The notes under the pieces are model-generated. The model was not told the origin of the DNA. It made no database searches and was given only the letters and a program-made list of their open reading frames with translations. Position numbers and translations under genes: made by a program. Below are positions 1 through 16,172 of a DNA stretch of 64,000 nucleotides, piece by piece (positions within the stretch are counted from its first letter, which is position 1; each line of letters begins with the position of its first letter). This DNA comes from Cerasicoccus sp. TK19100 (lineage in GTDB: Bacteria; Verrucomicrobiota; Verrucomicrobiia; Opitutales; Cerasicoccaceae): positions 434,001 to 498,000 of the forward strand of contig NZ_JAPWDU010000001.1 in assembly GCF_027257155.1 (NCBI RefSeq), given 5' to 3'.

Positions 1-69
1 TGCGTCGACTGCGCGATCCGATTGGTCATCTGATCGATAACCAAAGAATTCATATATTGTAGATGCCAT
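1..69 (-). CDS. Start of a probable NotI-family restriction endonuclease (cut by window edge)
   Basis: Only the first 23 codons are inside the window. The ATG at 69 lies one base beyond the stop of the C5 methyltransferase, so the two are almost certainly co-transcribed and translationally coupled. The visible start contains Y-E-F-F-G-Y followed by an acidic/polar stretch. From memory this resembles the amino terminus of NotI-like nucleases, which carry an EFFG-H/Y motif before a Cys-Pro-Phe metal-binding segment. The position next to a DNA methyltransferase supports a restriction partner. The family call rests on a very short stretch and is an inference; another type II nuclease is possible. 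Confidence 0.45.
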   Translation of the reverse strand, partial: MASTIYEFFGYRSDDQSDRAVDA

Positions 70-70
70 C

Positions 71-1294
71 TTAGGCTTGTTTTCTTATTTCGGAAAAACC
101 GCTCAGAATATTTGATAGCGAGCGACCAATGGCATTTGCAAGTAAAGGTGGCACGGCATTCCCAACTTGCTCATATTGCTCTACTCTAGAGCCTAGGAAG
201 GTAAAGGAATCTGGGAACGTTTGTATTCTTGCTGCTTCTCGGACAGTGAAAATCCGATCTTGGTTATAGTGGATATAGGCACCCCAGTGCGGATCGCATT
301 TTGTCAAAATTGTAGATGCAAGGCCATCAGGAGAGACGCGACCATATCTCTTTGTATGATCTGACCTGCGGGCTCTCTGCATACCCTTGGGGAGCAACTC
401 TGTCGGAATATTGGTCCAATTGCCGCCTGGTGGAATGAATTTAAGTCTTTCAAGGTTTACGTTTCCAAGCCGGGCAGACTCATGATTGGTGACTTGTGTC
501 GAGTTTAGACGCATCAATCGCTGAAAGTCGTTTTGCGGTTGCATGCGATATTCCTTAGTCTTGGGACCTGATTCACCATTTTTAAGGACTGGTAAATCAT
601 CCAATGCGTCTTTTACGGAGACGTGTGCTTGCAACTCAATGTTCGTTGGCATCGACACGATATTGCGCCCTTCAAAATTGGAGGTGAAATTTACCCTGAT
701 TGGAGCATTATACAGAGGAGTGGGAAATGCGTCTTCAAGACACTGACTATGGTCTCGTAGGCCGACAATGATAGTCCTCCATCTAGTTTGCGGCACTCCA
801 AAATGAGGTGCATAAAGAATTTTCACATCAGCTTTGTAGCCGCGGTCCGCCAAGCTCGAAAGAATTGATTGAAGTGTTTGACCGCCTTCAAAAGACACCA
901 GCCCCGGAACGTTTTCAATCAGAACTGCACGCGGGAAAAACTCATCAACAAACCTCAAGAATTCTTTGAAAAGGTGATTTCTCTCGTCTTCGGTTGAGCG
1001 AGTAGGCGCATTAATCGAATATCCTTGGCATGGGGGGCCACCTGCAATGAGGGCTAATTCACCTCTTTCAACACCAAGAAGATTACGAACAGATTTTGCA
1101 TCTAGGCTCCTGATGTCGCTGTTATCTACTGTCGTATGTGGATGATTTAGGCGGTAGGTCTCAGCATAACGATTGACTAGCTCATTGGCATATACGCATG
1201 AGAATCCTGCCTGTGTTAATCCCTCGGACAATCCTCCGGCACCAGCGAATAGATCAATCATCTTGAGTTCTTGGGCTGGATTAGCAGGTCTCAT
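71..1294 (-). CDS. DNA (cytosine-5-)-methyltransferase, restriction-modification partner
   Basis: This 407-residue protein has the ordered motifs of a C5 methyltransferase. They are motif I DLFAGAGG (14-21), motif IV GGPPCQ with the catalytic Cys at 89, motif VI ENV (127-129), motif VIII QTRWR (169-173) and motif X GNAVPP (378-383). It should methylate cytosine in a specific duplex site using S-adenosylmethionine. A nuclease gene begins one base after its stop, which makes this the protective half of a type II system. An internal Met12 just before motif I is an alternative start. A terminator at 1430-1475 separates it from the upstream replication genes, so it probably has its own promoter in 1295-1430. 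The target sequence cannot be read from the protein. Confidence 0.93.
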   Translation of the reverse strand: MRPANPAQELKMIDLFAGAGGLSEGLTQAGFSCVYANELVNRYAETYRLNHPHTTVDNSDIRSLDAKSVRNLLGVERGELALIAGGPPCQGYSINAPTRSTEDERNHLFKEFLRFVDEFFPRAVLIENVPGLVSFEGGQTLQSILSSLADRGYKADVKILYAPHFGVPQTRWRTIIVGLRDHSQCLEDAFPTPLYNAPIRVNFTSNFEGRNIVSMPTNIELQAHVSVKDALDDLPVLKNGESGPKTKEYRMQPQNDFQRLMRLNSTQVTNHESARLGNVNLERLKFIPPGGNWTNIPTELLPKGMQRARRSDHTKRYGRVSPDGLASTILTKCDPHWGAYIHYNQDRIFTVREAARIQTFPDSFTFLGSRVEQYEQVGNAVPPLLANAIGRSLSNILSGFSEIRKQA

Positions 1295-1429
1295 GGTTTT
1301 CTAGGCTTAGGATTAGCGGCGTGCAAAGTGAAAGTTAGGCTAGTCTGGCTACTTTGAATCGTCAATAATCGAGCTCAAAGTTTTATAGCGTTATGAGACA
1401 TTGGACAGTTATTGACTATGTAAACAAGG

Positions 1430-1475
1430 AAAAAGGGCGGGTGGTGCGCGCACCCGCGCGCATCCACTCCGCCCT
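1430..1475 (-). terminator. Bulged 18-bp hairpin with U-tract, end of the rep/small-protein transcript
   Basis: Read leftward, the sequence forms a long hairpin. Arms 1434-1440, 1441-1444 and 1445-1451 pair with 1469-1475, 1464-1467 and 1456-1462 respectively. The loop is four bases (1452-1455), with single unpaired bases at 1463 and 1468. The minus-strand transcript then runs into a short U-tract (1430-1434). This is a good intrinsic terminator for the genes at 1493-3035. In rolling-circle elements such a hairpin downstream of rep can also belong to a replication origin, which cannot be excluded. Confidence 0.75.
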
Positions 1476-1492
1476 AAGTTCGCTTGGATTGG

Positions 1493-1813
1493 CTATGCAA
1501 TGACTTGGCCGCGCTTGATGACGGTTCGGCCTTTGCTTGCTTCCATTGCTGATACCTGGACCGTCACCGGCTTGTAGAGGTCAAGCTTGGGGTATTCGGC
1601 TACTTGGTCGTCTTTTAGGCGAACGTCGGTTCGCTCGCGCGGGTCTAGGAATTGATCCCAGATCACGACGCCAGGTTGAGTCCCGATTTCGTGCGAAATG
1701 ATGACCCGCGGGCCGCTCCCGTCTTTCATTTGGATGGCTTTGGCCGTGGAGCTGACGACGACCCCACGGACGAACAGCCCATTTTCAGTGATGTTTACTT
1801 TGTTGTTTTGCAT
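1493..1813 (-). CDS. Small protein, possible single-strand DNA-binding (OB-fold-like) protein of the element
   Basis: The product is 106 residues, rich in beta-branched and basic residues, with no signal peptide or membrane segment. Its start overlaps the 3' end of the rolling-circle rep gene by 19 bases on the same strand, so the two are coupled. A gene of this size and position after an HUH Rep is often a single-strand DNA-binding protein, as in filamentous phages and some plasmids. The spacing of strands and the KGRTVIKRGQ tail are compatible with an OB fold. I cannot identify the family by sequence, so the function is inferred from position only. Confidence 0.6.
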   Translation of the reverse strand: MQNNKVNITENGLFVRGVVVSSTAKAIQMKDGSGPRVIISHEIGTQPGVVIWDQFLDPRERTDVRLKDDQVAEYPKLDLYKPVTVQVSAMEASKGRTVIKRGQVIA

Positions 1814-2604
1814 TTTATGTATGGTTCGAGAGCCATGAAATGTGGCTCACTGGTTATCTTGATTTGCCCTCGGCCTAGGTAGCGGCCTGCCAGAGCAATG
1901 TTAAAAACGATTTCGCCGAGTAGTTGCTGATAGGGCATGGTCAGATCGTAGGTCGCAAAGCAGTCGTTCATGTCGTGGAAAACAACTTTGTGCTCCCATT
2001 TAACTAGACGCTGCTCGATGGTCAGGGCCTCGGGCTGGTCGGCATTGGCTTCCTTACTATCTCTTTTCGACTTCGGCGGATATTGTTTGCGGGGAACGGC
2101 ATAGAAGTCCTTCGACGTCTGGAAAATGCGAATCCGCTCTTTCTTCAACACCCACTCGGGAATGTCTCCGCCCTTGGTGACGTACTTCAGCAGGTAATTA
2201 AAATCCTCGTTGCTGATGCGCTTGACGTTGGTTCGCCCCATTCCCCAAAGATGGTTTAACAGAGCACTAGGCAGGTAACGTTTCGTCAGAAATATGACGT
2301 GGAAGTGTGGCCAGCCGTTCTCGTGGAATTCGACTTTAACGCAGTAAGGCGAATCGAGCTGATAGCGTTTCCCATCCCATTTAACGCCTTTGCGGAGTTT
2401 ATAGAACAGCTTGCGGAGTCGCTTTCGGGCGTAGTCGAATGCACTTTCGGGGCTGGAGAACTCAACTAGATTGATGGTAAAGGTCAGGAACAAAGAGCCT
2501 GAGACGTCAGGCAGGCGTGGCGTTATGTCGGCAATGACTTTGTAAATTCCGCGAGGATGAAACCACGATTTCGGGATGAATTCGGAGAGGGTCCCTGGGA
2601 TCAT
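1795..2604 (-). CDS. Rolling-circle replication initiator (HUH endonuclease)
   Basis: The 269-residue protein has the HUH metal-binding motif (H100-F-H102 in GWPHFHVIF) and a downstream Tyr motif, FNYLLKYVTK, with Tyr137 and Tyr141 as candidate nucleophiles. These are the marks of rolling-circle initiators that nick a replication origin and covalently hold the 5' end. I placed the start at 2604 because its ATG overlaps the TGA of the upstream HTH gene in an ATGA arrangement. A longer frame reaching 2697 would overlap that gene needlessly. It resembles Rep proteins of small single-stranded DNA phages and plasmids more than IS transposases. It lies in an integrase-bearing island, so the element probably has an excised circular, replicating phase. 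Confidence 0.82.
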   Translation of the reverse strand: MIPGTLSEFIPKSWFHPRGIYKVIADITPRLPDVSGSLFLTFTINLVEFSSPESAFDYARKRLRKLFYKLRKGVKWDGKRYQLDSPYCVKVEFHENGWPHFHVIFLTKRYLPSALLNHLWGMGRTNVKRISNEDFNYLLKYVTKGGDIPEWVLKKERIRIFQTSKDFYAVPRKQYPPKSKRDSKEANADQPEALTIEQRLVKWEHKVVFHDMNDCFATYDLTMPYQQLLGEIVFNIALAGRYLGRGQIKITSEPHFMALEPYIKCKTTK

Positions 2605-3035
2605 GACGCAACCTTTCCGGCGTTGGCGGTTACGCTGTCGGGCTGACATACCAGGTCGCCGCCTTGTCCGTCCGTCGAAAGCGACCCTTGGGGGCACGCT
2701 TTCTTTCGCCGTCCGGGGCGGCTGGCTGCCCGGGCTTTCGACACGCCATGGGAGCGCGAACGCGGGCCGTTCAGGTTGTCGAGGATTTCACCGATTTGCC
2801 GAGGCGCGTTTTGGTGCGTAGTCTCGGCGGAGATCGCTTCGGATGTTTCCCGCAGGAACCGCTCAAGCTCCCAGCGTGGATACATGGGACGCCTCGTTGC
2901 CCGCGAGGGGTGGAGGAGTCCGCGTTTGGTCAGGCGATCCACCGTTGCCGGCGATTGCCCGAGGATGTCCGCCGCTTCTTCTCTGGAGTAAGCTAGGCGG
3001 GGAGGGTGGCTTGTAGTGCTTTCTGGCGTTTTCAT
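2601..3035 (-). CDS. Helix-turn-helix (excisionase/MerR-like) DNA-binding protein
   Basis: The protein has 144 residues. Residues about 15-65 read as a winged HTH of the helix_turn_helix_17/AlpA type, with YSREEAADILGQSPATVDRL then a hinge and a wing ending in WELERFL. The remainder is a basic, low-complexity tail rich in Arg, Ser and Gly. Such proteins serve as excisionases or as regulators of the replication operon in integrated elements. The stop overlaps the rep start by four bases, so the two are coupled. Which role it plays is not visible. Confidence 0.75.
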   Translation of the reverse strand: MKTPESTTSHPPRLAYSREEAADILGQSPATVDRLTKRGLLHPSRATRRPMYPRWELERFLRETSEAISAETTHQNAPRQIGEILDNLNGPRSRSHGVSKARAASRPGRRKKACPQGSLSTDGQGGDLVCQPDSVTANAGKVAS

Positions 3036-3078
3036 GATGACGCCAGAATATGCCAGGAAACCTCAAATCAATCAGTTC

Positions 3079-3864
3079 TCAGCGTTCCCTAGCGTGAGTA
3101 TCGTTTCGCCTCTTAGTCCTTGCATAAGAAACACATGTAAAACCGACTCTATTACACAGCAGCCTAAATGATTCATAAGAATGCTTGTGGTACTTTGGCC
3201 CCAAAATAGACTCAAAGACCATGTGCACGGCTTTTACTGAAGGTTGCCTTCTAAGCAGATCACCCATCAAGAGCAGCAGCATATAAACATTAGTTGCATC
3301 TGTCGGTTTCTTGAGCCTGATTTCACCAGTTTCGTCGACAGAGCCAATGACACCATACCCTTCACCATACCCAAGGAATAGCTTTTCCATTTCACTTGGC
3401 TTCTCTTTCTGAACGTACTCTTGAAATTTACCGAAGTCGAACAAACGCTCCCAGTAATCAATCTGCTTTTCGGCCTTTTCTACAATTTCTTCATCTAGCG
3501 TAAACCCACTGCAACCGATCTCCTTAGCAAGCTCATCCAATTCCTCAAACTGCTCCTCCATGGAATCCAGCATGGCCATAGCCTGACGATAAGCGCCCAT
3601 AATGAATGCAGCTGATCTAACATCCCCTTCTGGTTTGAATGAATGAATGTCCTTGAACACTGTTTTTAGAAGCTTTTTCCATATCCTAAGCCTCCATCCT
3701 ACCGGCCTCCTGATATTTTTGGACACATCAAACCGATCAAACTCTTTGGGCCTAAACCCCTTTTGAATAATGACGTATTCCAACTGAAACCGGATAACGC
3801 CAGCCCAATAGCAGTCGAGCCATTCGGCAGGTGAAAATGGTTTTATCTTCGTGGTCTTTGGCAT
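3079..3864 (-). CDS. Hypothetical protein of the mobile island
   Basis: The 261-residue product is charged, helical-looking and soluble, with no recognisable catalytic motif, signal peptide or membrane span. A Glu-rich helix lies around residues 100-150 and a basic tail at the end. The gene lies five bases downstream of the integrase stop on the same strand, so it probably belongs to the integrase transcript. I do not recognise the family. It could be an accessory or defence protein of the element. Confidence 0.7.
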   Translation of the reverse strand: MPKTTKIKPFSPAEWLDCYWAGVIRFQLEYVIIQKGFRPKEFDRFDVSKNIRRPVGWRLRIWKKLLKTVFKDIHSFKPEGDVRSAAFIMGAYRQAMAMLDSMEEQFEELDELAKEIGCSGFTLDEEIVEKAEKQIDYWERLFDFGKFQEYVQKEKPSEMEKLFLGYGEGYGVIGSVDETGEIRLKKPTDATNVYMLLLLMGDLLRRQPSVKAVHMVFESILGPKYHKHSYESFRLLCNRVGFTCVSYARTKRRNDTHARER

Positions 3865-3869
3865 TGAAA

Positions 3870-4940
3870 CTACATACGTTTAGCCATCTCGAACGAATGC
3901 GTATCGCGCAGATGGCCGTAAGTTTTAGCGACAAGTATTCCACCGTCTTTGTGTCCGACCCAAGCCGCAATTGTTTTAAAATCCACTCCTTTTTCAATGG
4001 CGTTACTTACGAAGTAGTGGCGCATACAGTGATGAGTGAAATGGGGAAGCTCGTTTTGGGTGCAAACGGTGATGAGAGCGTTTTTGGCGTCTTTGGCGGG
4101 GACGACCGGCGTTTGCGGGGCCGGTTTACCGTTGGGAGTGTCGGCAGCCTTCCGCTCTAAGAAACCCTTGAGCGTAGGGAAAAGGGGGACGACGCGGGCC
4201 TCGTGGTTCTTGGTGCCGGTTTCCCCTCCTGTGACGACGTAGGAGCCACGCTCCCAATCGATGTCGCCCCACAGGAAGGCATTGGCTTCACCCTTGCGCA
4301 TGCCAGAGTAGGCGAGTAGCTCCACCAGGTCAGCTGCGTTCCAGTAACGAATATCCATCGAGCGCAGTGATTTGATCATGGTCGCGAACTCGGCCTTGCT
4401 GGGGATCAGGATATGATTTTTGCCGAGTCGGCGGCGCTTGGTGACGGTCGCCGGATTCTCGAGGATGACGCCTTCCCGTATGGCGTAGTCGAAAATACTG
4501 ATGAGCGTTTCGCGTTCATTGTTGAAGGTGGACGCGGCAATCTTAGGCGAGCGCTTTTGAACCCAGGCGTCGCAGTCGTTGCGGGTAATGCTCCGAATGG
4601 TATCCTTGCCAAAGTAGCGGTTGAGTTGGTTGATGCTGGTTTCGCGGCGTCGTGTCGAGCTTGGTTTCAAGTGTGCGGTGATCGTTGCGCGCCATTTCTC
4701 GGCAAGCTCTGCAAAAGAGATTTTCGACTTTCCGTCCGTCAGGTCCAGTCGGCTGACATCCTTGCGGAACTGGCCTAAACGACGCTTTGCAAGCTTGAGA
4801 TCTTTGGTCTTCAAAGACCTGCGGATTTGCTTGCCGTTGTTTTTAACAAGAGCATAGTAGCTCCCCGATGTTTCGTGACGATACAGGCATTCAGCAACTT
4901 TTACATACGTGGATTGACTCGATTTCACGGGCTCAGGCAT
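3870..4940 (-). CDS. Tyrosine recombinase / phage-type integrase
   Basis: The 356-residue protein has an N-terminal arm-type domain (about 20-60), a SAM-like core-binding domain (about 75-165) and a catalytic domain. The catalytic set is visible: Arg215 in SGMRKGE, His304-x-x-Arg307 in THHCMRHYF, His330 in GHKDG and nucleophile Tyr341. The length is normal for the family. The gene starts about 90 bases from a tRNA-Arg gene, a classic integration target, and reads into the island. It should integrate and excise the element at or near that tRNA. Confidence 0.92.
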   Translation of the reverse strand: MPEPVKSSQSTYVKVAECLYRHETSGSYYALVKNNGKQIRRSLKTKDLKLAKRRLGQFRKDVSRLDLTDGKSKISFAELAEKWRATITAHLKPSSTRRRETSINQLNRYFGKDTIRSITRNDCDAWVQKRSPKIAASTFNNERETLISIFDYAIREGVILENPATVTKRRRLGKNHILIPSKAEFATMIKSLRSMDIRYWNAADLVELLAYSGMRKGEANAFLWGDIDWERGSYVVTGGETGTKNHEARVVPLFPTLKGFLERKAADTPNGKPAPQTPVVPAKDAKNALITVCTQNELPHFTHHCMRHYFVSNAIEKGVDFKTIAAWVGHKDGGILVAKTYGHLRDTHSFEMAKRM

Positions 4941-5031
4941 GCCTTGAAATCTATAGGGTTACACAATTGGGTGACAAGGGCGAATTTGTCTCGCGAAAAT
5001 ATATTTCTAAGTCTTTACTTATCAGTGATTT

Positions 5032-5107
5032 GGGGGAGTAGCTCAATGGATAGAGCAGCGGTTTTCTAAACCGTTGGTTCCGGGTTCGAGTCCCGGCTTC
5101 CCTGCCA
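5032..5107 (+). tRNA. tRNA-Arg (anticodon UCU)
   Basis: The 76-base gene folds as a complete cloverleaf. The acceptor 5032-5038 pairs with 5097-5103. The D stem is GCTC/GAGC. The anticodon stem 5058-5062 pairs with 5070-5074 around loop TTTCTAA, giving anticodon TCT at 5065-5067. The T stem is CCGGG/CCCGG with loop TTCGAGT. A G discriminator and an encoded CCA (5105-5107) follow. It reads AGA codons. The integrase gene starts just upstream, so the tRNA is the probable attachment site. Confidence 0.95.
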
Positions 5108-9949: not shown

Positions 9950-11695
9950 GTGAAAAGCTTATTGATACTGCTACTCGCGCTCTTGGCGACTTTTCCGCTG
10001 GTGGCGCAGGAAGATGGGCACGGGGTGCACGATAAATTTAACCTCGCTCGGATATCGAGTCCGCAGCGCACTTGGGAATCGTTGATTCACCTGACGGATA
10101 TCTACTGCGAAGTCATCAAAACGGAGGGCTACACGTCGGAGAATGAGGAGCGTTTGTATAGTTTGGAAAACCAAATTACCAAGCTCTTTGACTTGCGTCA
10201 GATCGCACCCTCGGTCCGGGAAACGACGGCCATCGAAGCTGCGGTTTACCTGCGGGAAATTCTCTCGCGCTTTGAGCCTTATCCATTCGATGAACTGCCG
10301 ACGCGCGGTGAAGCTTTTGCTGAAATGAAGTCCGGCGCGCCGCCGATGTGGTCGATTAACGATACGGACATCGTCATCGTCTTTGTCGATGAAGGGCCGT
10401 TCGTGGGGAGCTTCCAGTTTAGCGAACGTACCCTGGAATACGCCGATGAAATGTACGCCGTCGTCAAGTCAATGGACTATCGTGACGAGAAAATTGCCGG
10501 ATTTTACGAAGCGTATTTTATGACGCCGGGTCCGTTGATTCCAAGCTCTTGGATTCGGGCTCTGCCCAAGTGGATGCTCGTGAGCGTCGCCAACCAGAGC
10601 ATCTGGCAATGGATATGCCTGGTCATCGGATTCGCCTTTCTGATTTTGATCATCCTGCTGTTGTTCAACGTGCTGCTTAAGCTAAGCGCCAATTGGCTGC
10701 CGCCTTTCCGTGGGGTGTTTCGACTGCTCTTACCGCTCTTGGCCACTTGGCTGACGGCCATGCTGGTTGAGTTCCTGGACGATCACATCTTCATCACCGG
10801 CAATGTGCTGGCCGGTCTCTATTACATCGATGAAACCGTCGAGCTCATATCGCTCATGGCAGCAGTGCTCATCTTCGGCAACATGCTAGTTGGCATCATT
10901 GCACAACGGCAAAAGAAGAACCCGGTGACGATCGATACGCAACTGATTCGCTTTGCGATTCGAATACTTTCCATGCTCTTATCGGTGCTCGTGTTGATCC
11001 AGGGGCTTTCGCGAATGGGCGTTCCGCTGGCCACTGTGCTGACCGGCGCGGGTGTCACCGGTTTGGCCATTGCGCTCGCCGCGCAGGAATCACTGCGAAA
11101 CATTTTTGGCAGTATGATGATCCTGCTCGATAAACCGTTTAAAGTCGGCCAGCGCATTGTCGTTCGTGGGCAGGATGGCGTGGTAGAAGAGATTGGTTTA
11201 CGCTCCACACGCATTCGTCTGCTGAACGGTCACGTGGCAAGTCTTCCCAACGAAATCGTCGCCAACACCGACGTCGTCAACATCGGTGAGCGGCCCTTTA
11301 TTCGTCGCTTGTTTAATGTGCGCATCGCCTACGGCACGCCGCCGGAGAAAATCGACGAAGCGCAAGCCATCATTGAGGATGTGCTGGCGGTGAAAGAAGT
11401 CGACGGTGTGAAGCAGAATGAGTCGATCAACGCCGCGGACTATCCACCGCGCGTTTTCTTCAATGACCTCAAGGACGACGCCCTGAACATCATGGTCATC
11501 TATTGGCATTTTCCACCGGATTACTGGGCCTTCATGGCGCAGGTGGGCAAGATCAACCGCGAGTTGGTGCGACGCTTTAACGAGGCGGGCATTGAGTTTG
11601 CGATGCCGACGCATACGGTTCATCTGGCCGGTGAAACCGGGCAGGAGGTCGCGCTAGATCCCGAGACCGGGACGCCGGAAGCACCGGCCGGTTAA
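9950..11695 (+). CDS. Mechanosensitive ion channel, MscS family, with exported N-terminal domain
   Basis: Starting at GTG 9950 gives 581 residues with a signal peptide (KSLLILLLALLATFPLVAQ), then a helical periplasmic domain of about 200 residues and several membrane helices. The MscS pore helix and beta domain follow: GAGVTGLAIALAAQESLRN, then DKPFKVGQRI and VEEIGLRSTRIR. It should open on membrane tension to release solutes. A TTG at 9962 has a better-spaced GAGGTGA ribosome-binding site but would drop the positive charge of the signal peptide. The stop overlaps the convergent ABC ATPase gene by four bases. Confidence 0.9.
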   Translation: MKSLLILLLALLATFPLVAQEDGHGVHDKFNLARISSPQRTWESLIHLTDIYCEVIKTEGYTSENEERLYSLENQITKLFDLRQIAPSVRETTAIEAAVYLREILSRFEPYPFDELPTRGEAFAEMKSGAPPMWSINDTDIVIVFVDEGPFVGSFQFSERTLEYADEMYAVVKSMDYRDEKIAGFYEAYFMTPGPLIPSSWIRALPKWMLVSVANQSIWQWICLVIGFAFLILIILLLFNVLLKLSANWLPPFRGVFRLLLPLLATWLTAMLVEFLDDHIFITGNVLAGLYYIDETVELISLMAAVLIFGNMLVGIIAQRQKKNPVTIDTQLIRFAIRILSMLLSVLVLIQGLSRMGVPLATVLTGAGVTGLAIALAAQESLRNIFGSMMILLDKPFKVGQRIVVRGQDGVVEEIGLRSTRIRLLNGHVASLPNEIVANTDVVNIGERPFIRRLFNVRIAYGTPPEKIDEAQAIIEDVLAVKEVDGVKQNESINAADYPPRVFFNDLKDDALNIMVIYWHFPPDYWAFMAQVGKINRELVRRFNEAGIEFAMPTHTVHLAGETGQEVALDPETGTPEAPAG

Positions 11696-12393
11696 TCAAT
11701 GAACTGGCCATCCTGCATGCGCAGGCAGGCGTCGGTTTTTGTGGCGAGTTCGGTGTTGTGGGTAACCATTAGAATAGCCTGGCCAGTCTCTTTGCTCAGG
11801 CGCTGAAGGAGATTGAAAATCATGTCGGAGTTCTTCGCGTCGAGGTTGCCTGTGGGTTCGTCGGCAAGGAGTAGGGCAGGGTCGTTCGCCAGCGAGCGTG
11901 CGATCGCGACGCGTTGCTGCTCACCACCGGAAAGGTGAGTGGCCAGGCGGTCGACTTTCTCGCCCAGACCAACCAGACCTAGCAGGTATTCCGCGCGTTC
12001 GCGCATCTCATCTGGTGTGCGGACTGCCAGCTTGCGCATGGGCAGCATGACGTTTTCTGCGGCGCTAAATTCCGGCAGCAAAAAGTGAAACTGGAATACA
12101 AAGCCGATGTGGCGACTGCGTGCGGCGGTGCGCTCGGCATCGGAAGCGTCGGACATCAGTTCGCCGCGAATCCAAATCTTGCCTTTGTCCTGCCGGTCGA
12201 GCAGGCCCAGCAAATACAGCATCGTGCTCTTGCCACAGCCAGACTGCCCGACCACGGAATAAGTCGTGGCCGGCTGCAACGCCAGGTTTACGCCGCGCAG
12301 CACATGCACCCGCGATTCGTCTTCGCCCAAAAAGCGGTGCAGCTCCTCGGCGCGGAGTACGGGTTGGTTGTTGGCTGGCGGTGCTTCGGACAT
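11692..12393 (-). CDS. ABC transporter ATP-binding protein (LolD/MacB-type)
   Basis: The 233-residue ATPase has Walker [10 protein letters not shown], signature [15 protein letters not shown], Walker [13 protein letters not shown] and an H-loop VTHNTEL. Its closest flavour is LolD and the MacB ATPase domain, which drive FtsX-like permeases. It is the last gene of a run that encodes a TolC-like channel, an adaptor and a permease, three bases after the permease stop. Together they would make a tripartite exporter in which ATP hydrolysis at the inner membrane drives release through the outer membrane. Confidence 0.93.
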
Positions 12394-12396
12394 GGC

Positions 12397-13650
12397 TTAC
12401 ATGCTGGTTCCGCGAATGATACTGCCGGGCTCCAGGGCGGCGGCGCGGCGGGCGGGAATGTAGCTCGCGATCATGACGGTGATCGCCGCCACGACAGCGG
12501 CCCACAGGTAGTGGTTGATGTCCCAGTTGACGATAAAGGAGTCGGCGGTGAAGATGCCGCGAATTTTGATAGGCAGCTTCGAGATGGCAAAGGTGACGAA
12601 TGCGCCAAAGGCCCAACCACATATCGTGCCCGCGATAAGCACCAGGAAGCCCTGCCACAGAAATATGCGTGATATGTCTTGTCGCGTGTAGCCGATGGAG
12701 CGCAGGATCGCGATCTCCCGGGTCTTCTCCATCACCAGCATCGCCAGTGTGTTGAACATGCCAAGGCCGGAAATCAGGATGATGGTGGAGACCGTTATAG
12801 CCGAGGAAATGCGCAGGACATTGAACACCTGCAGCCAGGATTTCTCGCGCTCTTGCCAAGGGATTACGTTGTGCTGAAGTGTCTCCTCAAGGCGCTCGGC
12901 GACGCGGTCTGCCTGGTTGGGGTCACGCACGCCGATCTGAAAAATGGCCTCGCCAAAAGGCTTTTTGAACAAGGCCCGGGTTTCGCCGATGTGCATGAAA
13001 ACGCGCTGCTTGTCGATCTGCTCGATGCCGGTCTCGAAGATACCGGCAACCTTGTAGCGGCGGGTGTCGCCCGCGTATTCAAAAAGAATGTAGTCGCCAA
13101 CTTCCACGTGCATGCGCTCGGCAAACTTGCGGCCCAGCAGCACCGCGCTCGGGTTAAAGCTAAAGTCGTCGAGACTGCCCCACAGCATTTGGCGGTCGAG
13201 GTCGGTAACCTGTAGGTGGTCCTTCACCCGGATGCCAAGCACCCGGGCAATTTGTTCGCTGCTTTTGCTGATGGCGCGCGCTTCGCCTTTGAGCACTTCG
13301 GACACCGCAGTCACGTCGGAAAACTCCTCCACCGCGATGCGCAGTTTATCGGGGTATTCGATGCCGCGGATGAATTTTCGGCTGGGGTCCGTTTCAGCGA
13401 TGAAGCCACTTTGCTTGCCATCTTTGTCCGCGGCTTGGATGGAAAGATCGATGTGTTGGAAGCGGTCTTCGATGCGGATCGGGCTGTCGGCACCAACAAT
13501 CGTATCGATATAAAATTGCTCGAAGCCACTGGTTTGCGCCTGGGTGACGATAAAGAAACCCACGCCGAAAACAATGCCCGCTAAGCTCATGAACATGGAG
13601 CGCTTGCGGGAGACAATGAATCGAAACGCGATGGCGAAATTGGGGCTCAC
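12397..13650 (-). CDS. ABC permease, FtsX/MacB/LolC-E type
   Basis: The 417-residue protein has one N-terminal helix (about 18-36), a long periplasmic domain (about 40-285) and three C-terminal helices (about 290-310, 335-360, 378-398). This is the classic four-helix FtsX/MacB layout. The last segment has the family ending IPARRAAALEPGSIIRG. The ATPase is a separate gene rather than fused as in MacB. It sits six bases after the adaptor stop. Whether the cargo is a drug, peptide, lipid or lipoprotein is not visible. Confidence 0.9.
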   Translation of the reverse strand: MSPNFAIAFRFIVSRKRSMFMSLAGIVFGVGFFIVTQAQTSGFEQFYIDTIVGADSPIRIEDRFQHIDLSIQAADKDGKQSGFIAETDPSRKFIRGIEYPDKLRIAVEEFSDVTAVSEVLKGEARAISKSSEQIARVLGIRVKDHLQVTDLDRQMLWGSLDDFSFNPSAVLLGRKFAERMHVEVGDYILFEYAGDTRRYKVAGIFETGIEQIDKQRVFMHIGETRALFKKPFGEAIFQIGVRDPNQADRVAERLEETLQHNVIPWQEREKSWLQVFNVLRISSAITVSTIILISGLGMFNTLAMLVMEKTREIAILRSIGYTRQDISRIFLWQGFLVLIAGTICGWAFGAFVTFAISKLPIKIRGIFTADSFIVNWDINHYLWAAVVAAITVMIASYIPARRAAALEPGSIIRGTSM

Positions 13651-13656
13651 GGTCGC

Positions 13657-14769
13657 TTACTCGATGACTTCCACTTTATCGCCATGCCGGAGCTCTCTGG
13701 GATCTTCGACTACCACTTGATCGCCCTCCTGGAGGCCGCCGGTGATCTCTGCCTGCACCAGGCCAATGAAACCGGTTTCGACGATGCGCTCTTCCACGAG
13801 CTCGCCATTGACGACATACACAATGTTGCCCAGCAGTGCGCGGCGGGGGATGATCAAGGTGTTGTCGCGGCTGGCCTTGGTAACGGAGGATTCACCGGTC
13901 ATGCCATCGACCAGGTCCCCGTCTTCGGCGTTGGTCAGGTTCACGAAAATGTCGCGGCGCTTGGTCTCGGCGTTCGACGTTGGCAGGAGCTGGGTGACTT
14001 CGCCGGTAAAGAGTTTGCTGCCGACGCCGAGTAGCTTGAGCGATACGGGTTGGCCGGGGCGAATGCCTGGATAGTCCTCCTCGCTGATGCTAATACGGAC
14101 CAGCTTTTGATTACTCAGAATGCGCCCCAGCACGGTGGGCCCTTCCACGTAGTCTCCGGGGAAAACCTGAGCATTGATCAGCAGGCCGTCGATGGGTGCG
14201 CGGATCTCCATGTCGCTGCGTCGCTCTTCGAGTTGGCGCACTTGTTGGGTGAGCGATCGCTCGGATGCCTCCCAGTCAATGTATTGCTGGCGGACTTGGC
14301 GCTCCAGCTTGGTCACCGAACGCTCCAGCTTAATGAGCTCGGATTTCGGGAATTGCCCGATGTCGGAGAGGCGTTTGCTTTCTTCAAGCTCTTGCTTGGC
14401 GGTCTCCAGGTCGGGCTCGAGCGGTGAGCCGTTAGCAATGCGCTGTTTGACGGTTTCCAGCTCCAGCTTGATGTTCTCGATTTTAAAATCGAGGTCGCGG
14501 GTGTCTTGCTTGAAGACCACCTGATCGGCACGCACGGGCACGCCACCCAAACTAGGATCGTAGGCCGACTCGACAATGAGACCCGGTTCGCGGTTTTTCA
14601 GCTCAATATCGAGCGCTGCTTCCACGCTGACGTTACCGGAAATCGCATCCAGCGCTGTGCCGCGTTGGACGGGCACCGCCTTCACCTGCGTGCGGGAGCT
14701 GACCATGGTGAACGCCACGATGGCACCGACCACGATCAGGATAACAAGTATTTTCCAGAGGCTTTTCAT
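13657..14769 (-). CDS. Periplasmic adaptor (HlyD/MacA-type membrane fusion protein)
   Basis: The product has 370 residues with one membrane anchor at residues about 6-23. A broken lipoyl/barrel-sandwich domain follows, then an alpha-hairpin coiled coil (about 100-190), a second lipoyl half with APIDGLLINAQVFPGDYV, and a beta-barrel and membrane-proximal domain. It should bridge the inner-membrane permease and the TolC-like channel. The start shares one base with the stop of the TolC-like gene, so they are coupled. Confidence 0.88.
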   Translation of the reverse strand: MKSLWKILVILIVVGAIVAFTMVSSRTQVKAVPVQRGTALDAISGNVSVEAALDIELKNREPGLIVESAYDPSLGGVPVRADQVVFKQDTRDLDFKIENIKLELETVKQRIANGSPLEPDLETAKQELEESKRLSDIGQFPKSELIKLERSVTKLERQVRQQYIDWEASERSLTQQVRQLEERRSDMEIRAPIDGLLINAQVFPGDYVEGPTVLGRILSNQKLVRISISEEDYPGIRPGQPVSLKLLGVGSKLFTGEVTQLLPTSNAETKRRDIFVNLTNAEDGDLVDGMTGESSVTKASRDNTLIIPRRALLGNIVYVVNGELVEERIVETGFIGLVQAEITGGLQEGDQVVVEDPRELRHGDKVEVIE

Positions 14770-16172
14770 TACCAGTAAAAGTCTTCGTCGTAAACGTCTT
14801 GGACTGGTTCTTCGAGCGAATGTTTCGGCGCACCGAATGGATCATCGCCAAAGATTGAGAGCAACTCAGTCGAATTCGTGAACAGGCTCAGGCGGTAGTT
14901 AACCAGCGTTAGCCGGTCGGCGAGCAGGGTGTTCTCGGCGGCAATGAGATCGCTCTCGGTCGCGGTGTTTTTCTCGCGCTCGGCTTGCACGCGCTTTACC
15001 TGGTTTTCGCTTAGTGCCACACGGCGCTCCCACAAGTTGATATCGCGCTCGATCAGCTTACGATCGCGCCTCAGGCGATCGACCTCGAGCTTATCCTTTT
15101 GGGCGATGTGCTCGGCTTGCAGCTTGAGTGCGCGTTGCTGGGCCTTGGATTGGATCTTGTCCCACTTGGTTTTGAAACCGTCGAAGATATTCCAGTTTAC
15201 GCGCAGGTAAACTGCGACCACGGTGCGGTCGATGTTGTCCTGGCCCTGGGAGGCAATCTGGTCTTGGTAGGCCTCAGTAACGAAGTCGAGCAAAGGCATG
15301 TTCTGGGCGCGGATGCGTACGTATTGGGCTTCGGCAATTTTTAATTCCTGCTCCTTGTTCTTGTAAGCGAGCGAGGGGGGAGCCGAGCTGGAGATAACTT
15401 CAGCGGCCATGGAGGCCTCTTCTTGCTCCAGCTCAGTGAACCGCTGGAGCAGGCCTTGAGTGGGGCCATCGATGGGGCCTTGCCAACCAGTGGCCAGGCG
15501 AAGGTCTTCTTCGAGCATTTCGGCTTCGCTGGTGGTGCGCTCCAATTGGATGTTGGCCTCTTCGAGGGCCAGGTGGTCGTTTTCCAGTTGGTCCTGGGTG
15601 ATGCGACCCGATTCCGCCTGCTGCTCGCTGCGTTCGAGGGACTGCATGTAGCGCTCGCTCTCGGCGCGGTAGTAGGCGATTTGCTCACGGGTAAAGAGCA
15701 GGCGCAGGTAAAGCGTGCGGACACGGAGGGTCAGTAGCCGGTAAGTTTCGGCGTAGTTATTTTCCGAAATGGCCTTTTGAAATTGCCCAATGTCGCGCTG
15801 GGCGTCGAGTGCGCCCCAGTGGTAGAGGTCCTGCTCCAAACGCGCGATGCCAAAGGGCTGCGTGGTGTTCTGGTAAGTTGGGTTGCTGTCGCGGAATTCA
15901 CTGCGATTGGTCATTTGCAGATTCAGGTGAATCTTCGGCCACTTGGGCGACAGCTGGGCTTTTTCGTTGGCTTCGGCAGCCTGCACGCGGGCGCGGTGGA
16001 TCAGCATTTCCGGGGACTCGTCTTCCATCTGTTTGAGGATGGATTCCAGCTCCGGGAAAACCGTTTCCGGCAGATGCAGTGGCTCTTCTGCCTGAATCAT
16101 CGGCCCGGCCAGCAGCAGGGCCATCGCGCTCAAGACGCGCAACAATTGGTGGGTGAGTGGTGAACCGAACAT
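14769..16172 (-). CDS. TolC-family outer membrane efflux protein
   Basis: From the ATG at 16172 the product has 467 residues, with a signal peptide ending near QAEEP. Two OEP repeats rich in long heptad helices follow, for example the stretch around RYMQSLERSEQQAESGRITQ, as in TolC. It would form a trimeric channel spanning outer membrane and periplasm. The open frame reaches a GTG at 16232, but that extension is not a signal peptide and overlaps the divergent rsmE region, so I prefer the inner ATG. It is the first gene of the exporter operon. Confidence 0.88.
   Translation of the reverse strand: MFGSPLTHQLLRVLSAMALLLAGPMIQAEEPLHLPETVFPELESILKQMEDESPEMLIHRARVQAAEANEKAQLSPKWPKIHLNLQMTNRSEFRDSNPTYQNTTQPFGIARLEQDLYHWGALDAQRDIGQFQKAISENNYAETYRLLTLRVRTLYLRLLFTREQIAYYRAESERYMQSLERSEQQAESGRITQDQLENDHLALEEANIQLERTTSEAEMLEEDLRLATGWQGPIDGPTQGLLQRFTELEQEEASMAAEVISSSAPPSLAYKNKEQELKIAEAQYVRIRAQNMPLLDFVTEAYQDQIASQGQDNIDRTVVAVYLRVNWNIFDGFKTKWDKIQSKAQQRALKLQAEHIAQKDKLEVDRLRRDRKLIERDINLWERRVALSENQVKRVQAEREKNTATESDLIAAENTLLADRLTLVNYRLSLFTNSTELLSIFGDDPFGAPKHSLEEPVQDVYDEDFYW

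Follow-up and report, generated by a model that had tools for sequence, protein, structure and literature searches.

Among the described systems that come closest to the one reported here, RS1 inserts at dif by means of the Xer system of its host and nearly duplicates the replication part of its helper, and pDolos is said, after work by Schmid et al. in 2024, to be an autonomous, extrachromosomal plasmid satellite of the Shewanella filamentous phage Dolos whose packaging was shown experimentally. In papers that cite them, RS1 is named as a satellite of the CTX phage (PMC11389934) and pDolos as a plasmid that is satellite to an inovirus (PMC11389934, PMC13230959). In this study, we analyzed a window of 64,000 nucleotides (C1:434001–498000) from the 5.07-Mb genome of Cerasicoccus sp. 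TK19100, whose left end holds part of an integrated element with a tyrosine integrase, a rolling-circle replication initiator (Rep) and a restriction-modification (R-M) pair. The element is complete at 6.1 kb and has its replication module in common with filamentous phages of the host bacteria, and we judge it somewhat better than an even chance that it is a filamentous-phage satellite that integrates and offers a slot for defence genes; the sequence shows its boundaries, gene content, conserved lineage, common replication block and cargo turnover. It would resemble RS1 as a filamentous-phage satellite that has a Rep and lacks shell genes of its own, but it differs in having its own tyrosine integrase acting at a tRNA gene, its own divergent lineage and an exchangeable defence cargo. 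Like pDolos it has no virion genes and is thought to exploit an inovirus for its spread, whereas pDolos is reportedly an extrachromosomal plasmid with experimental packaging and the Cerasicoccus element, for which packaging is presumed, has an integrase, tRNA attachment (att) sites and a defence slot.

Three further groups of elements invite comparison. P4-like satellites and phage-inducible chromosomal islands are integrative and carry antiviral hotspots (PMC9122126); they have fixed integration sites and a slot of exchangeable anti-phage systems, as does the Cerasicoccus element, but they depend on tailed double-stranded DNA phages and have other replication proteins, in place of its HUH-type Rep, oligonucleotide/oligosaccharide-binding (OB) fold protein and rolling-circle type origin. 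The pCRESS groups and similar integrated HUH-Rep plasmids (Kazlauskas et al. 2019, PMC6668415) also integrate site-specifically, encode a Rep and lack viral structural proteins, whereas their Reps are CRESS-like with a helicase domain and that of the Cerasicoccus element is of a G2P type common to local inoviruses, with a linked OB protein and defence cargo. The pTN3-type integrases of Thermococcus use an att site of about 41 bp from the 5′ half of a tRNA gene (PMC8371274, PMC5495485). The 5′-half att site, and the regaining of the tRNA without its native promoter, are likenesses to our element, but pTN3 is an archaeal plasmid-virus element whose integrase gene is disrupted on integration, and the Cerasicoccus element is bacterial with an intact integrase. 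In open-access papers we found no description of an integrative filamentous-phage satellite with defence cargo, nor any family with this exact gene set, for which a previous reading of the window (hereafter the sequence-only reading) also knew no match; subscription papers lay mostly outside the search, so that absence is not proven.

The element spans C1:432931–439069 (window −1069 to 5069) and comprises 6,099 bp with seven recognisable genes, and the interval 1–5107 given for it by the sequence-only reading is only part of it. A DNA search of the genome identified an exact 40-bp repeat pair, one copy at window 5030–5069 and the other at C1:432931–432970, 1,070 bp left of the window, which is the second att site that had been proposed to lie there. 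The repeat covers the 5′ half of tRNA-Arg(TCT) as far as the anticodon, and joining the flanks produces a tRNA-Arg gene matching the intact gene of three sister genomes (L066–L068) at 94–98%; a kinase upstream of the insertion site has 75% identity in one sister genome (G104). Past the left repeat lie ordinary chromosomal genes. Because there is an att pair with a matching intact tRNA in sister species, the genes make up one mobile element, as had been suggested, and this is a complete, single unit; the 5′ half of tRNA-Arg(TCT) and the region upstream of it are now element-derived. It is extremely unlikely that what we see is a chromosomal R-M locus beside an unrelated integrase and a Rep relic, an arrangement with which the GC content, differing between genes from 0.44 to 0.63, would agree. 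This is because the single att pair encloses all seven genes, the restriction endonuclease (REase) lies inside it, 188 bp from the left repeat, and the cargo of relatives occupies the same position. The features are as follows, in window coordinates unless C1 is given and with the genes in the direction of transcription:

5032–5107, plus strand: tRNA-Arg(TCT), the integration target, with an intact gene in sister genomes
5030–5069, plus strand: attR core, the 40-bp exact repeat of the tRNA-Arg(TCT) 5′ half, ending just after the anticodon
3870–4940, minus strand: tyrosine integrase, 356 residues (PF00589, 3e-13), of a family that targets the 5′ half of tRNA genes
3079–3864, minus strand: mostly helical protein, 261 residues, conserved in position, with no Pfam match
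2601–3035, minus strand: HTH_17/MerR-like helix-turn-helix (HTH) DNA-binding protein (HTH_17, 2e-9), resembling excisionase/regulator PHROG 66
1795–2697, minus strand: Rep, rolling-circle initiator, an HUH endonuclease of the filamentous-phage G2P type (PF23343 REP_ORF2-G2P, 2.7e-13)
1493–1813, minus strand: OB-fold protein, 106 residues, its start overlapping the Rep stop
1434–1475, minus strand: bulged GC-rich hairpin, 42 nt (z −5.7), immediately 5′ of CCTTGTT
1403–1429, minus strand: conserved CCTTGTT...AATAACTGTCC motif, the presumed Rep nick site (double-strand origin)
71–1294, minus strand: C5-cytosine DNA methyltransferase, 407 residues, cargo (PF00145, 3e-69)
C1:433158–434069, minus strand: NotI-family REase, 303 residues, cargo (PF12183, 9.9e-11; PADLOC REase_II, 4e-42), its N-terminus at window 1–69 and the rest left of the window

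All the minus-strand genes that the sequence-only reading had listed are present, from the integrase to the C5 methyltransferase, and the nuclease it had named together with the latter is the REase, which has a local match to the NotI structure 3bvq. By homology, methyltransferase and adjoining REase form a NotI-type type II R-M pair, in keeping with the defence cargo that had been proposed. The lack of coat, Zot or relaxase genes, previously seen within the window, extends to the complete element. No Zot (PF05707) was found among its genes, both Zot genes of the genome being on C2, and no coat-like open reading frame (ORF) was detected by hydropathy among its genes and the gap ORFs of at least 25 residues, the top value being 1.59 for a TTG-started ORF of 28 residues. 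The element also has no strongly hydrophobic gene product, no relaxase or conjugation genes, and no recognised addiction or partition genes. A conjugative element was rejected, as no VirB4 or MobA-type relaxase was found in the genome in searches for PF03135 and PF03432.

Integration at tRNA 5′ halves recurs in the Rep clade described below, in which att repeats of 37–57 bp from tRNA 5′ halves were mapped for 11 elements, our own included. The 10 others are at genes for tRNA Arg, Met, Thr or Leu, with the repeat at the element's far end beside the same integrase family, of which L057 retains only a fragment. Four loci found via the integrase (L150, L152, L154 and L156) have tRNA 5′-half repeats of 34–42 bp. 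A second integrase type, which uses the common 3′ end, occurs in other elements, one of them in the Cerasicoccus genome, and some members of the Rep clade (L052, L053, L059) have it too. Islander recorded a 5′ tRNA fragment in 159 islands versus a 3′ fragment in 3,760 (3,919 in total; PMC4383910), and the lineage offers a clear set of integrases of this rare 5′-half type.

The HUH Rep proposed earlier from its HFH and YLLKY motifs matches PF23343, and both histidines of the HUH motif (HxH) and the tyrosines and lysine of YLLKY (YxxKY) are invariant across 12 aligned Reps; its true start is probably the conserved ATG at 2605–2607. An IS91/IS200-type transposon was rejected, as the Rep matches PF23343 and no transposase family. 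Given also the att repeat in the left flank, neither of the two findings that the sequence-only reading had named as refuting it was made. The 106-residue protein, previously considered a possible single-stranded DNA-binding protein, is a probable one: its confident all-beta model (predicted local distance difference test, pLDDT, 89.7) has its best structural matches in the OB folds of archaeal replication protein A and single-stranded DNA-binding proteins, with weak E-values (0.007). The hairpin that had been called a terminator is there, but it belongs to a conserved origin-like site as part of the presumed origin, and may also act as a terminator or packaging signal. Relatives have the pattern CCTTGTT-N9-11-ATAANTGTC downstream of the OB gene, in some with an RNA-like spacer in between, at one site per element in nearly every element; a bulged GC-rich hairpin precedes it in nearly all (28 sites with a mean z of −4.9), though L057 and two Rep-less elements have a weak one. 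The site was not found in L076, which also has no clear OB gene. In 113 kb of background sequence that included the window, a loose form of the pattern matched twice, and one of the two matches is presumably that of the element itself; the pattern is thus not common by chance. CTTG is a known type of nick site, and by analogy the nick would lie within CCTTGTT. In L070 (2513–2690), L071 (3237–3390), L072 (2543–2695) and L075 (11080–11232) the OB gene and origin are separated by a conserved structured spacer of about 150 nt with a terminator-like stem at its end, in which 5 pairs are changed on both sides among only 4 sequences; it has no Rfam match.

When 273 genomes of the order were searched, about 10 had relatives of the Rep at 43–59% identity, and scanning genome contigs yielded further Reps, nearly all from Verrucomicrobia/Opitutales, with one in a possibly misbinned bin labelled Obscuribacter. 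The Cerasicoccus Rep and 20 relatives form one clade (support 96/87), and no Zot was found inside the element of any of the 21 members. Twelve Reps of Zot phages fall outside the clade on several branches, and its nearest relatives beyond the clade are in Zot-bearing phages; the midpoint root of the tree leaves the direction from phage to satellite unproven. A recurrent gene order is conserved (integrase, protein of 240–270 residues, HTH, Rep, OB protein, cargo), with the integrase sometimes flipped to the far side. Core genes are under purifying selection, with dN/dS of about 0.1–0.25 for pairs of Rep, OB protein and integrase and 0.33 for one pair of the short HTH.

These results bear on the proposal that the element is a filamentous prophage in decay, which lost coat, pIII and Zot and kept its restriction system. 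Its Rep, OB protein and origin are indeed arranged as in local filamentous phages with the structural genes missing, and a few other shell-less Reps adjoin Zot-phage Reps in the tree, as would follow from loss on more than one occasion. Nevertheless, decay is a highly improbable explanation, given that the same shell-less set recurs in a clade whose 21 members have intact frames and low dN/dS, with att ends mapped for many and an integrase family common to most. Of the three identities entertained by the sequence-only reading, a decayed phage can be set aside in view of this conserved clade and its purifying selection, and a satellite phage and an integrating plasmid both remain. Further branches of the tree also hold Rep elements that lack shell genes (L065, L069, L111, L113, L114 and L120), several of them beside Zot-phage Reps, which suggests that loss of virion genes has happened repeatedly.

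Filamentous prophages of the host bacteria have the block of Rep, OB protein and origin in common with the elements, with coat-pIII-Zot where the cargo sits; in the Zot prophages L013, L061 and L062 the hairpin and CCTTGTT are at the same place. The Cerasicoccus genome itself has two filamentous prophages with Zot, whose longest DNA word in common with the element is at most 16 bp. They lie side by side in opposite orientation (L013, C2:254950–268190), each with Zot and Rep and one with a coat-like ORF and a pIII-like gene. Together with the lack of transfer genes, and of VirB4 or MobA-type relaxases, their presence suggests packaging by a helper phage. Order-wide, a Zot prophage occurs in 3 of 10 carriers versus 12 of 273 genomes (p 0.007), a signal driven by one family, and we do not take this co-occurrence as support because that host family explains it.

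Several findings weigh against a satellite. Within the host family, element and Zot co-occur without enrichment (p 0.67), and none of the six element-bearing genomes outside it has a Zot prophage. Neither the Rep nor the origin pattern had a related match among 2.9 million viral contigs, nor had the Rep in a phage collection, and the satellite and phage OB proteins are only weakly alike (hhalign probability 53%). In addition, replication modules swap freely between plasmids and filamentous phages (PMC6668415), so that a link to phages is not proven by having Rep and origin in common.

The principal alternative is an integrative rolling-circle plasmid that would excise and replicate in the same way without a helper phage and would spread by transformation, vesicles, transduction or mobilisation, its module having been borrowed by inoviruses or the reverse. 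All the replication and integration genes that it would need are present, the Rep has a matching conserved hairpin and CCTTGTT site downstream of Rep-OB, the presumed origin, and there is good documentation of HUH plasmids that are integrated and have no virion genes (PMC6668415); the many carriers without a Zot prophage and the element's absence from viral contigs also suit it. Against it, the Rep's nearest relatives beyond the clade are phage-borne, 72,556 plasmids yielded no related Rep, no free circular copy was found, and the element and genome lack, respectively, recognised addiction or partition genes and the mobilisation genes sought. We regard such a plasmid as a real possibility, although a clearly less probable one than a satellite. 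The satellite has a modest lead only, because of the carriers outside the host family without Zot, the absence from viral, phage and plasmid records and the swappable modules, and sequence alone does not decide between the two.

For a filamentous-phage satellite, we infer the following course of excision, replication, packaging and defence. The integrase would recombine at the tRNA anticodon loop, and the 5′ half of the gene brought by the element would restore the tRNA on insertion. Excision, in which the HTH protein may act as excisionase, would yield a circle that replicates by rolling circle; the Rep would nick the CCTTGTT next to the hairpin, and the single strand would be coated by the OB protein. 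In the absence of coat and assembly genes, movement would most likely be via packaging in the filamentous particles of a helper phage, and the NotI-type pair would defend both the element and its host from other phages. Whether integrative filamentous-phage satellites of the Opitutales, as a previously undescribed family, trade the coat-assembly cassette for an exchangeable anti-phage slot and spread as packaged single-stranded DNA seems to us evenly balanced. If they do, the defence-hotspot satellites known for tailed phages would have a parallel among filamentous phages, in a phylum whose phage biology is little developed, and whole immune systems would be carried by small particles of single-stranded DNA. 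The compact, readable origin makes packaging directly testable.

The cargo slot lies between origin and att at the same position across relatives, with its contents exchanged. Recognisable cargo comprises a SIR2 protein and two unknown partners (L054), a type IIG R-M system with a SIR2 protein (L056), a Dsr1-like SIR2 (L059), a GmrSD/PD-T4-2-like protein with HEPN (L070), a type III R-M system with a DndB-like protein (L071), MazF (L076), FRG proteins (L078, L080), DUF4062-TPR (L058), PIN (L050) and a large RHS protein (L057). In L060, Cas9-Cas1-Cas2 (11190–15311) directly follow the origin, and the contig ends shortly after, before any array or att site. Little or no cargo was recognisable in L052, L053 and L073. 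The cargo is often defensive, its enrichment for defence genes being a matter of judgement.

Other members of the lineage depart from the common plan. L150 and L154 have the same integrase and att type and keep the origin motif but have lost intact Rep and OB genes, and L154 has a large cargo gene. In L152 (4132–16079) the same integrase, 261-residue-like protein and HTH genes accompany a Rep of the type of L014, and the Rep appears exchangeable within the backbone. Just across a tRNA-Thr gene from the 3.8-kb element of L076 is a 353-residue ORF (11971–13032) similar to phage Zot (4e-11), with a Pfam Zot score below the cut-off. An origin-pattern match in L109, a 46-kb contig, was taken as chance, its ORFs having no relative of the Rep.

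Homologues of the 261-residue protein are highly divergent and have a C-terminal tail in common; its structure model is modest (pLDDT 73) and a fold search gave no match. tRNAs were the only Rfam matches. Elsewhere in the Cerasicoccus genome, L014 (5084–11058; C1:773084–779058) is another integrative element with an HUH Rep, which occupies tRNA-Lys, has a 3′-end att of 27 bp and carries a PifA-like KAP NTPase, and a stretch beside tRNA-Arg(CCT) in L012 (9273–9611; C11:45273–45611), with 71% identity to the integrase start and tRNA region, is apparently a relic of a third.

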